Source: Hydrogenimonas sp.
GTDB taxonomy: Bacteria; Campylobacterota; Campylobacteria; Campylobacterales; Hydrogenimonadaceae
DNA: 35,864 bases
Direction: 5' to 3'
Assembly: GCA_003978765.1 (NCBI GenBank)
Contig: QNYO01000022.1
Span: 1-35,864, forward strand
Shown: one piece after another, positions 230 through 9,141 of the stretch
How positions within the stretch are numbered: position 1 is the stretch's first letter
Layout: the number at the start of each line of letters is the position of its first letter
Notes under the pieces: model-generated
Database searches by the model: none
The model's input: the letters and a program-made list of their open reading frames with translations, nothing else
Told to the model about the DNA's origin: nothing
Position numbers and translations under genes: made by a program

Positions 230-348
230 TGTTTACCACCTTAAATAACAAAATTAAAATATTAGACTATAACATCTATAGTATAAACAGACACTTAAAA
301 TAGTGCAAGATTAATCAATTGTTTTATCTTTTGTTGTCAAATACAATC

Positions 349-398
349 TGTCAAGTGCAACCTAAAAATGTACCACCTACAAAAAGTGAAAATGTAGC
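349..398. repeat. IS21-like terminal sequence, possible IS remnant
   Basis: The stretch begins TGTCAAGTGCAACC and then carries AAAAATGTACCACC and GAAAATGTAGCA, two near-copies of one short motif. IS21-family ends typically start with TGT and carry repeated blocks resembling AAAATGTACCAC. No transposase reading frame is next to it, so at most this is a stranded end. The gap 230-469 is very AT-rich and also holds a small palindrome CAACTTTAAGTTG at 424-436. The attribution is inference from motif memory. Confidence 0.25.
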
Positions 399-469
399 AT
401 TTTTTAATCTATTTATCTTCTGTGCAACTTTAAGTTGTAATAACCGATCTGCAAAAATAAAACCGCTTC

Positions 470-1123
470 TTATTTAATACTTATCTCTTTCAGTAATACT
501 TTTATATTTTCTAATCTCTCTTTGTTTGTTGGATGAGTATTTATGTTGAAATCAAATAAACGTGAAAATTCTTTCTTTTTATTTTTTTCTTCTTTTACTG
601 ACATTTTAGATAGGTTTTTATAGAAGCTATTAATTATTTTGTATAGATCATTTTCATTTGCAAGCAGTCTTACCGCACAACTATCAGCTTCTAACTCTTG
701 GTTTTTATTAAAGTTTTTTGCAAGATTAAATAAAGTGTCTCTCACTGCATAAATAGCTCCTATTTGCTTAAACACTTTTTCATATTTGTTATCTTTACTA
801 CTATCAAAATTAATTATACTATCTTTTAAAGAGTCTATCATGTCAAAATTATCTAGTAAGTCTAAAACAATAGTCTGATACTCCATTACATAGTGTCTTT
901 TTAGGGAGTGAGCTACTTCGTGTGCTATGGATAGTTTTGCAAAATTTGAGTCTTTAAGTACACTTTTAGTCAAATAAATCTTTCCTCCAGGATTGGAAAA
1001 AATATCTTTATCTACTACACTGTTCACAATAAAACCTACACAACTATTTATGGCTCCTTTAGCACCCTTCTTTTCTTTATGCTCTGGATCTATATCTCTT
1101 GGATTATCTTTCTCTACGGACAA
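470..1123 (-). CDS. M48-family zinc metallopeptidase, short and probably N-terminally truncated
   Basis: This 217-residue protein has the M48 core. PGGKIYL is followed by HEVAH (the HExxH zinc and catalytic motif, residues about 68-72), then ELEADSCA, whose Glu would be the third zinc ligand, and a C-terminal THPTNKERLENI typical of M48 peptidases. It has no signal peptide, lipobox or membrane segment, although family members are usually secreted lipoproteins or membrane proteins. An in-frame stop lies just upstream and no ATG precedes the catalytic motif. The only plausible start is TTG at 1121-1123, three bases after the comEC stop, with AGAAGG of the comEC tail as a possible ribosome site. 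Base composition is far AT-richer than comEC. It may be a working cytosolic short form or the 3' remnant of a longer gene. Confidence 0.65.
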   Translation of the reverse strand: MSVEKDNPRDIDPEHKEKKGAKGAINSCVGFIVNSVVDKDIFSNPGGKIYLTKSVLKDSNFAKLSIAHEVAHSLKRHYVMEYQTIVLDLLDNFDMIDSLKDSIINFDSSKDNKYEKVFKQIGAIYAVRDTLFNLAKNFNKNQELEADSCAVRLLANENDLYKIINSFYKNLSKMSVKEEKNKKKEFSRLFDFNINTHPTNKERLENIKVLLKEISIK

Positions 1124-1126
1124 AAA

Positions 1127-2404
1127 CTATGCTACCTTCTGAATCAGGTAGATCAGCCAACCCAACGCAAGTCCAAACTGAAGATAGAGTGCGATACGCC
1201 ACCGAATCGCACCCAAAGCCAAAGTGATAAAGAGGATCAGCAACCATAACGGTGTGGTCTCATAAACAACCACACCACCCTCTGCCCAGTGTAAAAGTGC
1301 AACAATCCATTGGTCGGTCACATCACCCCACCCTATCAGATGCAATCCAATCCACAATGGATAGAAAAAGCTAAAAAGTACTGTTAAGATAGGAGAGATG
1401 AGCTGATAGAGTGAAAAGGTGCCAAAAAAGAGATGTACTACTGGTAACATCATCAAATAGACCCAAAGATTCAAGCCGATAAAGATTGCCCATTTAGGCC
1501 ATTGGGTTGTCCACTTTAAAAAGAGATAGATGAAGAAGATACCACTAACAGAGAGCCAAAAGCCGATAGAGAAGAGCAGAGAGGGAAAGAGTGCTAAGAG
1601 TATCACAACACAGAGTGCAAGAAATCGAAAAGAGAAGAGTTCAAGACCAAAGAGAAGTGCAAGCCATGCAATCACAACCATCATATAGGCTCGAAGCAGT
1701 GAGGGTGGTGAACCTGTAAATACCAAATAGCCACCAAGAAGAAGGAGCGTCACAAGACCAACATCCATCAATCGATGTCGCCATGGAAAAAATCTCTGCT
1801 GAAAAGGTTTATAGAGCCATGATAAGAGTGTGTAGAGCATGAACCATAGCAATCCCATGTGAAACCCACTGAGTGCTAATAAATGATTCACACCAAGCCG
1901 TGTCACCCGCTCTCGCAACTCTTTAGAGATGGGAAGTGCAAGAAAGAGTGCCCCAAAGAGTTCTTGCATCCACCGATGCTCATGCACCTTGCCAAGATAG
2001 TCAAAAAGGTGCATCCGTAGAGACTTTTGGTAATTCACACGCAGAATCACTGAAGGGATATAAGGGGTTGTCAAATAATCTTTAAAGGTGACCTTTTTAG
2101 GAAAAATCAGAAGCGAGATATTGCGTCCTTGTAACGGTTTAAGCAACTCTTTTGATGTGGTATAAAAAGTAAGACCATCTGATGTTTCAAGCTTTAAAAC
2201 CTGATAGTGCCTCCCTGCTTTCTCTTTAGGATAGTGAAGGAGTACATCAGCTGTGACAAAGAGCTTTTTGGAAGAGACAAACTGGATATAGTTGTAGTAG
2301 TGCCATCCTAACATGATGGCAAAAAGAAGCAGAGAAAAAAGAAGAAAAAGCCCCCACTCTCGGCGGCCTTCAATGGGTATTGGTTTAGATAGGTGGAAGC
2401 TCAA
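1127..2404 (-). CDS. comEC: ComEC/Rec2-type DNA uptake channel
   Basis: This polytopic inner-membrane protein is predicted to carry single-stranded transforming DNA into the cytoplasm. An N-terminal hydrophobic segment and a soluble part precede the competence-domain signature NHLLALSGFHMGLLWF, which is followed by many membrane helices to the C-terminus. At about 425 residues it lacks the C-terminal metallo-beta-lactamase domain of longer ComEC proteins, as is usual in Campylobacterota. I place the start at TTG 2402-2404, preceded by GGTGG and overlapping dnaB by 20 bases. The frame stays open to 2479 with an ATG at 2473-2475, but that start would overlap dnaB by about 90 bases. It is the last gene of the long minus-strand run that also encodes three pseudopilins, so a competence role fits the context. 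Confidence 0.85.
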   Translation of the reverse strand: MSFHLSKPIPIEGRREWGLFLLFSLLLFAIMLGWHYYNYIQFVSSKKLFVTADVLLHYPKEKAGRHYQVLKLETSDGLTFYTTSKELLKPLQGRNISLLIFPKKVTFKDYLTTPYIPSVILRVNYQKSLRMHLFDYLGKVHEHRWMQELFGALFLALPISKELRERVTRLGVNHLLALSGFHMGLLWFMLYTLLSWLYKPFQQRFFPWRHRLMDVGLVTLLLLGGYLVFTGSPPSLLRAYMMVVIAWLALLFGLELFSFRFLALCVVILLALFPSLLFSIGFWLSVSGIFFIYLFLKWTTQWPKWAIFIGLNLWVYLMMLPVVHLFFGTFSLYQLISPILTVLFSFFYPLWIGLHLIGWGDVTDQWIVALLHWAEGGVVVYETTPLWLLILFITLALGAIRWRIALYLQFGLALGWLIYLIQKVA

Positions 2405-4844
2405 TTTTGGTTTCGCCACCGGTATCGATGTTCGACTCTTCGTACACCACCTCAACCGGTACTTGTCCTGCATCGACAAAACGGGTAAAGCGTTTCTGGA
2501 ACTTCAACTCAACAATACCTGTTGGTCCATTACGCTGTTTGCCGATGATAATCTCTGCATCCTCCTCCTCTTTTTCATGGAAGGTGGACTTATACTCTTT
2601 CCCTTCCGCACGTGCCTTCATCTCCTTCTCTTTCTCTTCACGAATACGATAAACATCATCACGATAGACAAAGAGAATAATATCGGCATCCTGTTCAATC
2701 GCACCCGATTCACGCAAGTCAGAGAGCATCGGTCGTTTATCGGCACGTGACTCTAATGAGCGGTTAAGCTGTGAGAGGGCAACAATCGGAATTTGAAGCT
2801 CCCGTGCCAACATCTTCAAGCCCCGAGAGATTTCACTCACCTCTTGGTGCCGATCTTTATTGCTGCCACTACTCATCAACTGCAGATAGTCGATCATCGC
2901 AATTTTAATTTCAGGATGATGTGATTTCAATTTGCGAAGTTTGGCCCGTACTTGATGAATGTTGAGGGTTCCTTCATCATCGACAAAAAGCTTTTGGTTA
3001 CTGAGCCAATCGATCGCTTCTGAAAGTCTTGTCCATTCATCATCCCGTAAATTCCCAACTCGAAGATCTTGCAGTGCAATCGAAGTTTTGGCACTCAACA
3101 TCCTTAGAACCAACTGTTCTGCTGGCATCTCAAGAGAGAAGAAGGCGACACCATCCCCATTCTCCAATGCTTTTAACGCAATATTGAGGGTAAAAGCTGT
3201 ATTGTGTGTAACAGTCATATCCTCAAGCAAAAAGAGATGGTTCCCATCAATTGTAAAGCCATAATAGTCATCAACACAATCAGGTTCAATCCTGATACCT
3301 GTATGAGTCACATCCCGATTCGCTTTTCTTGAACGTGGCTTTTTACGCTCTATCTTGATTGGTATGCGATCAAGATCACCAACAATCCGAACACGATAAA
3401 CTTCACTCTCATAGCCACGCTCTTTAATCTGAGCCTTTTTTGCGACCAGTGAAGTTCTAAACCCCAAAGTATCAGCCAAAAACTTAATATCTTCTGCCAA
3501 TGCTTTATGCTTTTGGGTAATCTCAATCACATGATGTTTATCATCATAATACCCATCACTATCAATCAATCCCGCTAAAAGCTCAAGTCGAACCTTTTCA
3601 CTATTGGCCAAATAGCAATGTGGTATTCTCTTTTCATCAAGCAGTCCCAATTCTCTAAGCAGTCTCTGTAAAGAGAAAGTGCTATGAGGATCAACGGCAT
3701 GTCCATTTGTAATGCCATACATTGGGCACTTTCCTTCTGCTTCATACAAATGTAAAATCAAACCAAGCTTGGCAGCATAGGCTTTGAGATAATCAACTAT
3801 TTCATCATCTTCTGTTGCAATACGTACATCACTACTTCGTCCATCACCAAGCCAAATACCAAGGAAATAGGGGTCAATAGAGACCTCTTTTTCAGGGAAA
3901 TCAACAGCGACCTTATACCCTTTATAGTTTGACTTAAACTTATCACTTTTTTGCAAATAGTCTCGTACAGAGATATTGAGTACATCACCATGTTTATGAC
4001 GACCTTCTGTTCTACTTCGCTTCAAAGAGAGAATATGACTCTCATTAACACGATAATCAATTCCTTTATTTTGTCTTACCCAATACATCATCTCTCGTCC
4101 ACGCGCCAATGAGAGAACACGTCTTGGTGTTGAATCATCACCCATAAGAAGGTCACCCACCTTAATATCTTCAACCTTCTTCAATGTCCCATCATACATT
4201 AAGACTCTCGTCCCTTTACCAAGACATTTTCCCATCGCAGGTCTTGCTGCAACGATGACTAAGTCACCCTCACTAAAGCCTGATGTCATACGGTTGAGAT
4301 CTTTAAAACCTGTATCGACACCAATGAGCATCGAGTTGCCACGCTCTTTCATCTTTTTGATATGCTCAAGGGTGCTAAATGCCATCTCTCGACTCTCACG
4401 GAAATCTTGTGTCGAGCTTTCAGAGGTGATGGCATAGAGCTTCTGCTCCACAGCATCCATCACATCTTCAGCAGGCAAGTCATCCTCAATCGTCAACTTC
4501 TTAATCTCTGTTGCCAATGTTACAAGCGCACGTTTTTGTGCTTTGGCTTTAATCTCTTTAATGTAAGCGTGGGTATTTGAGAGAGGGTTGGCACTTAAAA
4601 TATCTAAAAAAGCGACCTCATCAAACTGATTCTTTTGAGTCAACCTCTCTTTTAGAAACTCTTCATCAATTGGTTGATCATTTCTAAAGAGCTCCTCCAT
4701 CGCTATAAAGAGGTGCTGATGGAAGGGGTGGTAAAAATCTTCTGGTTTGAGTTGTGCAGCAATCTCTTCATACTGCACTGGATCGAATATAATCGTACTT
4801 AAAACAGCACGCTCAATATTCAGATTATATAGATGCTCTTCCAC
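2385..4844 (-). CDS. dnaB: Replicative DNA helicase DnaB precursor with in-frame intein
   Basis: Hexameric replication-fork helicase, 819 codons as translated. Residues 1-206 and 549-819 are the exteins and would join to a 477-residue DnaB of normal length. The N-terminal domain is followed by the RecA-like domain, with VIVAARPAMGK directly before the insertion and TAFTLNIALK after it. Further on are a Walker B-like IAMIDYLQLM, SQLNRSLESR and RQRNGPTG motifs. The insertion splits the Walker A motif between Lys and Thr, so helicase activity should require splicing. The start is GTG at 4842-4844, preceded by GGAG and sitting three bases after the ispG stop, which implies co-translation. The gene ends inside the start region of comEC. 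Confidence 0.97.
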   Translation of the reverse strand: MEEHLYNLNIERAVLSTIIFDPVQYEEIAAQLKPEDFYHPFHQHLFIAMEELFRNDQPIDEEFLKERLTQKNQFDEVAFLDILSANPLSNTHAYIKEIKAKAQKRALVTLATEIKKLTIEDDLPAEDVMDAVEQKLYAITSESSTQDFRESREMAFSTLEHIKKMKERGNSMLIGVDTGFKDLNRMTSGFSEGDLVIVAARPAMGKCLGKGTRVLMYDGTLKKVEDIKVGDLLMGDDSTPRRVLSLARGREMMYWVRQNKGIDYRVNESHILSLKRSRTEGRHKHGDVLNISVRDYLQKSDKFKSNYKGYKVAVDFPEKEVSIDPYFLGIWLGDGRSSDVRIATEDDEIVDYLKAYAAKLGLILHLYEAEGKCPMYGITNGHAVDPHSTFSLQRLLRELGLLDEKRIPHCYLANSEKVRLELLAGLIDSDGYYDDKHHVIEITQKHKALAEDIKFLADTLGFRTSLVAKKAQIKERGYESEVYRVRIVGDLDRIPIKIERKKPRSRKANRDVTHTGIRIEPDCVDDYYGFTIDGNHLFLLEDMTVTHNTAFTLNIALKALENGDGVAFFSLEMPAEQLVLRMLSAKTSIALQDLRVGNLRDDEWTRLSEAIDWLSNQKLFVDDEGTLNIHQVRAKLRKLKSHHPEIKIAMIDYLQLMSSGSNKDRHQEVSEISRGLKMLARELQIPIVALSQLNRSLESRADKRPMLSDLRESGAIEQDADIILFVYRDDVYRIREEKEKEMKARAEGKEYKSTFHEKEEEDAEIIIGKQRNGPTGIVELKFQKRFTRFVDAGQVPVEVVYEESNIDTGGETKIELPPI
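3201..4226 (-). mobile_element. DnaB intein with LAGLIDADG homing endonuclease
   Basis: This 342-residue in-frame insertion is DnaB precursor residues 207-548. It starts with Cys207 in a typical block A (CLGKGTRVLMYDG) and ends VTHN, with Thr549 as the first C-extein residue; Cys1, terminal His-Asn and +1 Thr are what a class 1 intein needs. Block B is NESHILSL, keeping His but not the usual TxxH threonine. A LAGLIDADG endonuclease domain sits in the middle, with motifs LGIWLGDG (residues about 328-335) and LAGLIDSDG (about 423-431), each with an acidic residue in the catalytic position. The C-terminal splicing block is DDYYGFTIDGNHLFLLED. No frameshift or stop is seen, so both splicing and endonuclease modules look intact. 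Homing-endonuclease inteins are mobile elements of the host gene. Confidence 0.95.
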
Positions 4845-7837: not shown

Positions 7838-8278
7838 TTAGTGGGTCAACTGCTGACAGTTGGTATTGGTATGATCACAATCAAAGTGACCTGTTGCCGG
7901 TGTATAGGTAAATGTGACATCCTGCCCCTGTACTTTAAAGCTATATTGTGTATCATCTGTCTTCATCCAGTGTCCATCCGCATCTTTAGAGTAGATAGGA
8001 TAGTCTAATACATTGTTAAAGAGTGGTTGATTCTCTGCATTTGCCGTTGCTGAATCTAATGTCGCAGGATACGATGTATTGCCTTCAAGTAGAGCTGTTT
8101 GGTGCTGTGTGCTAATTGCACTCCGGATTGTTGCTACTTCAGAACGTCCTTTAGAGATAATGGCATCATCACGTGTTACCCACAATTTAGGTAGTGCCAC
8201 ACCTGCCAAAATACCGATAACAACAATCACAAAGATAAGTTCAAGCATTGTAAATGCTTCTCGTTTAGTAGATAACAA
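7838..8278 (-). CDS. Type II-like pseudopilin (third of three tandem copies)
   Basis: Small secreted prepilin of about 146 residues. The N-terminus has the class III signal: a short charged leader, then FTMLELIFVIVVIGILAGVALPKL, with Glu at +5 and one long hydrophobic helix. The residue before the predicted cleavage site is Ala rather than the usual Gly. The C-terminal globular part ends with two cysteines in FDCDHTNTNCQQ, a possible disulfide loop. The TTG start at 8276-8278 is preceded by AGGGG and overlaps the upstream pilin gene by 14 bases. It is probably a subunit of a pseudopilus used for DNA uptake or secretion; the exact role cannot be read from sequence. Confidence 0.85.
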   Translation of the reverse strand: MLSTKREAFTMLELIFVIVVIGILAGVALPKLWVTRDDAIISKGRSEVATIRSAISTQHQTALLEGNTSYPATLDSATANAENQPLFNNVLDYPIYSKDADGHWMKTDDTQYSFKVQGQDVTFTYTPATGHFDCDHTNTNCQQLTH

Positions 8279-8717
8279 CTGTTCCCCTTAATACCATAGG
8301 ATAAGCTTCTGCTGGAATCGTCTTTTGTAACTGCTGACACATTAAGTCGCCATTAGGTTGACCAAACTGTAAGATGAGTGTATCATTATTATCATCGGTT
8401 GAAATTTTTAGAGCAACACAATCATTAACACTTCCAACCTTCACAACCCCTCGTTTATTAGCGACATCTATCGTCATAATTCCTCGTCTCTCTAAACTGG
8501 CCAAAGTATTGGACATTTTAGAAAGATTATCTTCAGTACGTGCTTGAGAGATAGCATACGATGTAATATCCGATGCACCTGTCATAATCTGCTGTGCAAG
8601 GGCAACCACTTTGGCATCATCCCGTGATGCCGCAAGTTTTGGGATGGCGACTGTTGCTAAGATTCCCATAATCACAATAATAAAGATCAATTCGATCATT
8701 GTAAATGCTTGTCTCAC
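8265..8717 (-). CDS. Type II-like pseudopilin (second of three tandem copies)
   Basis: Prepilin-like protein of about 150 residues. The leader MRQA is followed by FTMIELIFIIVIMGILATVA and then PKLAASRDDAK, nearly the same block as in the neighbouring pilin. Cleavage would be after Ala, with the methylated residue Phe and the conserved Glu at +5. GTG 8715-8717 is preferred as start because a run of G sits at ribosome-site distance and the leader then matches MRRG of the next pilin; an upstream TTG at 8732 is also in frame. Two cysteines occur, in NDCVAL and LMCQQL. The gene lies between the other two pilins and overlaps the following one. Confidence 0.85.
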   Translation of the reverse strand: MRQAFTMIELIFIIVIMGILATVAIPKLAASRDDAKVVALAQQIMTGASDITSYAISQARTEDNLSKMSNTLASLERRGIMTIDVANKRGVVKVGSVNDCVALKISTDDNNDTLILQFGQPNGDLMCQQLQKTIPAEAYPMVLRGTVVIY

Positions 8718-8745
8718 GTCGCCACCCCCCAATGACTACAACTTT

Positions 8746-9141
8746 TTAGTAGACGATCTGCGTTCCACCGAACACATGCGTACCATTAAGATCTTTTGCA
8801 ATCACTGCATTCTTCACATTTGTACAGTAAGCATATGTACTCTCTGCACCAGTGTTATAGTCAACACTAATGTTCCCATCACCTGTAGATGTTTGACCAT
8901 TCGCTGTTGTACTGACTGTATAGCACTTCAATGAACGACATGCTGCAGTATTGTTATCCTCTGTACCTGTTGCTGTATAAGCGTTTCCAACATCATTGAT
9001 ACATGTTGCAAGGTTTGCCAACTCTGTTGAAGCTTTCGCATCATCACGTGTTGCTGCAAGTTTTGGAATTGCAACAGCTGCCAAAATACCCAAAATTACG
9101 ATCACGAAGATCAACTCAATCATTGTAAAACCACGTCGCAT
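8746..9141 (-). CDS. Type II-like pseudopilin (first of three tandem copies)
   Basis: Prepilin-like protein of 131 residues with a classic leader: MRRG, then FTMIELIFVIVILGILAAVA, with Gly at -1, Phe at +1 and Glu at +5. After the helix comes PKLAATRDDAKAST. The globular domain is rich in Thr, Asn and Gly and has four cysteines (TCIND, AACRS, KCYTV, YCTNV), enough for two disulfides. ATG 9139-9141 has the best ribosome site of the three (AAGGAG). The strong site and orthodox leader suggest this is the major subunit and the two downstream copies minor ones; that is inference. A prepilin peptidase must be encoded elsewhere. Confidence 0.87.
   Translation of the reverse strand: MRRGFTMIELIFVIVILGILAAVAIPKLAATRDDAKASTELANLATCINDVGNAYTATGTEDNNTAACRSLKCYTVSTTANGQTSTGDGNISVDYNTGAESTYAYCTNVKNAVIAKDLNGTHVFGGTQIVY

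Follow-up and report, generated by a model that had tools for sequence, protein, structure and literature searches.

The dnaB gene of Hydrogenimonas sp. is interrupted by an insert whose residues, domains and position identify it as a class 1 intein carrying a homing endonuclease, located at a known P-loop site. A self-splicing element thus appears to lie within the ATP-binding loop of the replicative helicase, and we consider it very probable that this LAGLIDADG-bearing intein of the Hydrogenimonas group is spliced out of DnaB and homes into empty dnaB alleles. The gene was found in a stretch of 35,864 nucleotides (contig QNYO01000022.1, hereafter the window) from an assembly of 1.61 Mb in 94 contigs, which is 80% complete.

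The dnaB open reading frame (2385-4844, minus strand) starts with GTG, is free of stops and encodes 819 amino acids. The insert comprises 342 residues (precursor residues 207-548, DNA 3201-4226, minus strand) between Lys206 and Thr549 and splits the Walker A motif (...AARPAMGK206 / C...HN / T549AFTL; slashes mark the insertion point). Removal of the insert leaves 477 amino acids (819 - 342), and the open frames of seven intein-free congeners, measured from stop to stop, are 477-496 amino acids long; in the eighth, L016, the frame is cut by a contig end. The eight congeners have an unbroken ARP[AS]MGK/TA junction; the in-frame insert in this conserved motif is thus missing from intact homologues. 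Pfam recognised Hom_end_hint (PF05203, E 4.8e-23), Hom_end (1.9e-13) and LAGLIDADG_3 (6.6e-13) in the insert, all above the gathering scores, and one DnaB domain on each side, DnaB N and DnaB C. The PF05203 match, together with matches to PI-SceI and Prp8, identifies a Hint-type splicing domain at the sequence level, and the residue set of class 1 inteins is present (Cys1, His64, His341-Asn342 and Thr549 at +1). Two LAGLIDADG motifs, LGIWLGDG and LLAGLIDSDG, carry one acidic residue each (D128 and D224), as in LAGLIDADG endonucleases; in a phmmer alignment these pair with PI-SceI residues 218 and 326, which we take to be its catalytic aspartates.

Searches of relatives revealed 84 distinct inserts, of which 76 were aligned after L056, L066, L087 and L092, which are cut by contig ends, and L112, L114, L115 and L121 had been left out. 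The 76 inserts, the window's included, share one K/T junction (one residue at this junction is unread in L065) and, therefore, chance is excluded. Conservation of the key residues among them is given in Table 1. The coordinates, residues and 477-residue product size of the original prediction, which was made from the DNA alone, were all correct by the reading frame, the junction and the intein-free congeners. Its identification of an intein by Cys1, His-Asn, the +1 Thr and two acidic LAGLIDADG motifs was confirmed by Pfam, phmmer and the 76 aligned inserts, and the signatures of both splicing and endonuclease are intact in the window copy, in line with its statement that neither module is degraded.

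Table 1 Features of the intein-containing dnaB gene in the window
Feature	Position	Strand	Basis
DnaB N-extein, residues 1-206, ends ...AARPAMGK	4227..4844	-	PF00772 at residues 5-99
Intein, 342 aa, Cys207 to Asn548 of the precursor	3201..4226	-	Pfam, motifs, comparison with relatives
Cys1, putative first splicing nucleophile (block A)	4224..4226	-	C in 75/76 aligned inserts
Block B, N61-E-S-H64	4035..4046	-	N61, S63 and H64 at least 95% conserved among 76; invariant in 43 rows
Homing endonuclease region, intein residues 115-286	3369..3884	-	Pfam, PI-SceI alignment; boundaries set for the dN/dS count
LAGLIDADG motif 1, FLGIWLGDG, D128	3840..3866	-	D in 74/76
LAGLIDADG motif 2, LLAGLIDSDG, D224	3552..3581	-	D in 72/76
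His341-Asn342 (block G)	3201..3206	-	HN in 76/76
+1 Thr549, P-loop Thr and putative second nucleophile	3198..3200	-	Junction reading
DnaB C-extein, residues 549-819 and stop	2385..3200	-	PF03796

According to these features, the precursor would be made as a single chain of 819 amino acids with a split ATP site. Cys1 and Thr+1 would then drive protein splicing, Asn342 would cyclise and DnaB of 477 amino acids would be left. In dnaB alleles with an empty site, the endonuclease of the excised intein would cut at the conserved P-loop codons, and the intein would be copied into the cut allele during repair; the proposed route runs from splicing and DNA cleavage to homologous recombination as the mode of repair. 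As had been predicted, we strongly infer that the DnaB of the host depends on intein splicing: one DnaB match was found in the assembly, which, being 80% complete, leaves room for a second dnaB. In G017, a congener with a single-contig genome, the sole DnaB match carries the allelic intein and, therefore, DnaB function should rest on splicing there; by analogy, the same would apply to the window genome.

Eighteen genomes of the host family, all of one genus (the Hydrogenimonas group), were searched, with the whole DnaB as query for empty sites. Seven contain the intein, eight have an empty junction and three are unreadable (G004 with only 58 residues, G010 and G011 without a DnaB match). Intein-free dnaB genes, proposed as a check on the prediction, are thus present in close relatives. 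PF14890 was found in none of the 18 genomes and PF05203 matched only the seven DnaB inteins. Of 397 evenly sampled Campylobacterota genomes, 23 had a match to the intein, 20 of them with DnaB P-loop inteins; the matches in the remaining three (G027, G263 and G218) are not DnaB P-loop inteins. The earlier view that inteins are not common in Campylobacterota therefore stands for the phylum (20/397 sampled genomes) but not for the genus, in which 7 of 15 readable genomes are occupied. Sampling was one genome per species, and many genomes are drafts or metagenome assemblies.

In a DnaB extein tree of 28 rows, occupied and empty alleles are interleaved, with six changes of occupancy, at least five of them forced by starred branches, and a single clade of occupied alleles was rejected (p-AU 1.9e-76); such counts of changes do not tell gain from loss. 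Occupied and empty alleles are sisters in G017 and G002, G013 and G014, and G012 and G006. The last pair differs by a dS of 0.25 in dnaB, 0.30 in ispG, 0.37 in priA and 0.21 in comEC. Apart from dnaB and comEC, genes were named by reading the sequence; the open frames of neighbouring genes run from stop to stop, and some of their alignments include upstream codons. A host tree of three genes (ispG, priA and comEC; 10 genomes) required three changes of occupancy, no fewer than with shuffled labels (mean 2.7). Patchy occupancy and the conflict between intein and host trees mark a mobile lineage, and intein mobility is well supported by these comparisons. The relatives neither all carry the same insert nor yield an intein tree matching DnaB, and the claim that the element is probably still mobile held up, given occupancy, tree conflict and the young intein of one pair described below.

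In G014, whose dnaB reads as free of the intein, a contig break falls four bases ahead of the intein site, with contigs C122 (end of L026) and C130 (start of L016) overlapping by exactly 55 bases. The sampled population may hold both empty and occupied dnaB alleles; alternatively, the fork is a plain strain variant.

The nearest occupied relative of the window is G016. Between the two, the intein has a pS of 0.38 (dS 0.53) and the extein of 0.63 (dS 1.37), while 15 other window genes have values of 0.59-0.79 (22 were tried, 7 are missing from the G016 stretches compared). The difference between intein and extein at synonymous sites gave 2e-8 in Fisher's test with rounded site counts, and none of 2000 random subsets of 342 extein codons was as low as the intein. 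In genus g4, the dS values of intein and extein are alike (0.33/0.32, 0.56/0.63 and 0.58/0.61) and, therefore, synonymous change in this intein is not slow as a rule. A pS below that of the extein and of the 15 genes argues that the common ancestor of the window and G016 inteins is younger than their host genes; the source would be either direct donation between the two or uptake from a third lineage. Third positions are AT-rich in both inteins (GC3 0.30 and 0.25). A compositional artefact behind the low divergence was rejected: with each value divided by its expectation under shuffling of synonymous codons, the intein was still lowest (0.48, compared to 0.71 for the extein and 0.72-0.95 for the 15 genes). 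In the g4 control, the scaled intein was below the extein too (0.33 vs 0.40; 0.48 vs 0.63) and, therefore, part of the scaled gap between window and G016 may be general.

No significant co-conversion tract was seen beside the insert in the window/G016 pair: the 60 codons upstream had a pS of 0.50 vs 0.65 for the rest, and 165 of 2000 random sets of 60 codons were as low. A scan of G012 vs G006 gave a pS of 0.45 at the site and 0.51 at 90-120 codons upstream, with values widely raised in mid-gene. Separate uptakes in G017, G001 and G013, for which extein dS is 0.76-0.90 and intein dS 1.55, 2.24 or saturated, were considered and dropped; neighbouring genes range from 0.82 to 1.60 (ispG 0.82-1.52, priA 1.53-1.60, comEC 1.19-1.30) and, therefore, the discrepancy may stem from a low extein dS. 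Adjoining priA in the window, three tandem pilin-like open reading frames (7838-9141, minus strand; only 8746-9141 was run against NCBIfam) have one common best match on contig L122 of G016; their identity to it, 30-38%, is lower than that of the other genes in the comparison.

Three inteins of family f4 (L095, coded as genus g4, and L041 and L042, grouped with it by tree) are 79-80% identical to the window intein; the g4 exteins are 64-74% identical to that of the window across the two arms. In a tree of 37 intein rows, a single clade of f4 inteins with the other families as outgroups was rejected (p-AU 1.2e-9). Among these rows, L095-L098 and L100 were coded as f4, and L041, L042, L043-L046, L048 and L086 were assigned to it in the analysis. 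The tree subsets (20, 20 and 37 intein rows) were chosen after a tree of 75 rows, from which the 214-residue L094 had been left out as well, was seen. A single clade of Hydrogenimonas inteins was found in 0% of 200 bootstrap trees and was not rejected with protein (p-AU 0.083) or with codon positions 1 and 2 (p-AU 0.16). For the exteins, Hydrogenimonas and g4 as one clade was rejected in a quick tree (p-AU 0.004), in which distant Bacteroidota rows make Hydrogenimonas need two changes, probably a long-branch effect. The intein trees point to one transfer that crossed families, in either direction. In sum, sequence comparison indicates that the intein moved between related species and families.

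A quite different history would be that of a splicing-competent relic with a dead endonuclease, inherited vertically, with patchiness reflecting an old gain and repeated loss. Decay does occur among the relatives: L098 and L078 lack D224, L117 lacks the two acidic residues together with part of the domain, and L094, with 214 amino acids, is a mini-intein. All four keep Cys1 and HN, as expected because the essential protein must still be freed. The equal dS of intein and extein in g4 is also what vertical descent predicts. Against this, the window copy keeps both acidic residues, and its endonuclease region is under purifying selection: dN/dS between window and G016 is 0.067 for the endonuclease and 0.024 for the splicing region. 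Ten pairs were counted, of which L057-L059 was uninformative due to too few changes; seven others gave 0.030-0.114 for the endonuclease, and L102-L117, which includes a decayed copy, gave 0.256. In the latter pair, dN/dS of the splicing region was raised too (0.107), making it an imperfect control for decay. The relic history also conflicts with the young common ancestor of the window and G016 inteins and needs several precise losses, while random precise deletion of an intein "may be very rare" (PMC3229294). We therefore regard it as unlikely. The Flavobacterium intein L079 has retained HN and the two acidic residues but has Pro in the position of Cys1 (at about 2995); this is either a sequencing error or a splicing-dead element.

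The intein could also be kept as a switch by which stressed cells delay maturation of the helicase, a role reported for the mycobacterial DnaBi1. DnaBi1 likewise lies in the DnaB P-loop, and in M. smegmatis its catalytic Cys forms a disulfide upon oxidation (PMC6195587). However, DnaBi1 is described as a different type, a class 3 mini-intein with Ser+1 and without an endonuclease, whereas the window intein, which has Cys1, Thr+1 and a LAGLIDADG endonuclease, does not belong to that type. The other cysteines of the window intein are not generally conserved either (C167 in 50/76, C204 in at most 5 and C317 in 4), and eight congeners live without the intein. A switch is, therefore, very unlikely. 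Class 3 inteins of the DnaBi1 type also lack a nucleophilic residue 1. The window intein, DnaBi1 (mycobacterial DnaB site b) and the mycobacteriophage intein TerL1-a all interrupt the Walker A motif of their host ATPase; TerL1-a separates the invariant Lys from the nucleophilic Thr and is described as a "classic" P-loop insertion (PMC5050341).

That the element arrived recently from another phylum, such as Bacteroidota, or from a phage is highly improbable, even though allelic inteins do occur there at the same junction. Identity to the window intein over the full length is 59-65% in Bacteroidota, 58-59% in two cyanobacteria, 56% in a Clostridiales bin and 54-59% in three viral contigs (a fourth, L121, matched only in part). 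Including the congeners, the same-junction DnaB inteins span 54-96% identity; they differ in host lineage, and a few are without endonuclease. Among phage records, 636 of 50,697 matched, 420 of them over at least 80% of the length. The best full-length match was 48% among the matches listed, three records in the band of 60-80% identity are outside the matches listed, and the first 100 residues of the intein alone reached 68% in Klebsiella phages. The three phage inteins examined (45-48%) are all inserted at GK/T, in a "putative helicase" of a Klebsiella and of a Bacteroides phage and in a "hypothetical protein" of a Vibrio phage. Plasmids gave no indication of a vehicle, with matches in 13 of 72,556 records, all below 60% identity. 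These full-length identities are far under the 77-96% found in congeners and the 79-80% of the other family. In the 75-row tree, the window intein is nested in two starred clades, one of 10 and one of 28 rows, which consist of Campylobacterota throughout, and in the 37-row tree 33 Campylobacterota rows stand opposite four Bacteroidota rows with a support of 100/100. A recent donor from another phylum, which the original prediction had thought possible, is thus unlikely by these trees, the closest inteins belonging to congeners and to a different family within the order; an older exchange between Campylobacterota and Bacteroidota inteins, whose deep branching received no clear order in the 75-row tree, is possible.

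Several related elements were observed at other places. In L112 (G027:C4), an open reading frame with a Terminase_6N match (259-2778, minus strand) contains a related intein (41-44% identity) inserted at SGHG/SGKST, three residues earlier in the P-loop than the DnaB intein, a register that presumably is that of yeast VMA1. Weaker relatives are found in a terminase large subunit with TerL domains (L115, G218) and in an open reading frame without Pfam match outside the insert (L114, G263; VAPPGVGK/T). The DnaB of Candidatus Thiovulum (L054, 2371-6147) has a P-loop intein and a second intein-like stretch at residues 730-1151 (PF14890), and a second insert is possible in L083, L069, L073, L089 and L093, where the DnaB open reading frames exceed 1000 amino acids. 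In L035 and L036 (G016:C4 and G016:C72; 593-598 amino acids), the partner of the DnaB N-terminal domain is an AAA_25 ATPase instead of DnaB C; over the stretch that matches, this N-terminal domain shares 59-65% identity with that of the window.

No report of a chromosomally encoded Campylobacterota intein was found in the open-licence full-text literature. From the same phylum, the Campylobacter coli phage vB_CcoM-IBB_35 has inteins in other genes, encoding terminase, PhoH and ribonucleotide reductase, and that paper mentions no DnaB intein (PMC3322345). Homing cycles and patchy occupancy have been treated in theory (PMC3229294) and described for haloarchaeal inteins, which serve as markers of gene flow and whose presence and absence is discordant with host phylogeny, like that of the window intein, but which are located in other host genes and in another domain of life (PMC4071816).

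The best solved relatives of the window intein are PI-SceI of yeast VMA1 and the fungal Prp8 inteins (phmmer 1e-26; family profile 3.2e-37 against PDB). PI-SceI is larger (454 vs 342 amino acids), has a different host protein and, as we assume, occupies another P-loop register. Among the 11 PDB matches of the family profile, with PI-SceI and Prp8 best, none was named as a bacterial DnaB intein; the eukaryotic inteins covered in this search were PDB entries. One structure of a bacterial DnaB intein, DnaBi1, exists (PMC6195587). VMA1 has Asn in place of Thr in block B (PMC6805012), as does the window intein. With this Asn and the terminase intein of L112, three residues earlier in Walker A, it is conceivable, albeit rather doubtful, that the lineage from which the fungal VMA1/Prp8 inteins arose survives in bacteria as the P-loop inteins of Campylobacterota, Bacteroidota and their phages.

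The intein in the window is an element of a known kind, and its value is in the comparative series which surrounds it. A single genus offers alleles with and without the intein as well as one pair with a recent exchange, in one replication gene at one site, and the same phylum adds decayed endonucleases and a mini-intein at the same dnaB site. With this series, the homing cycle can be dated relative to the divergence of the hosts.
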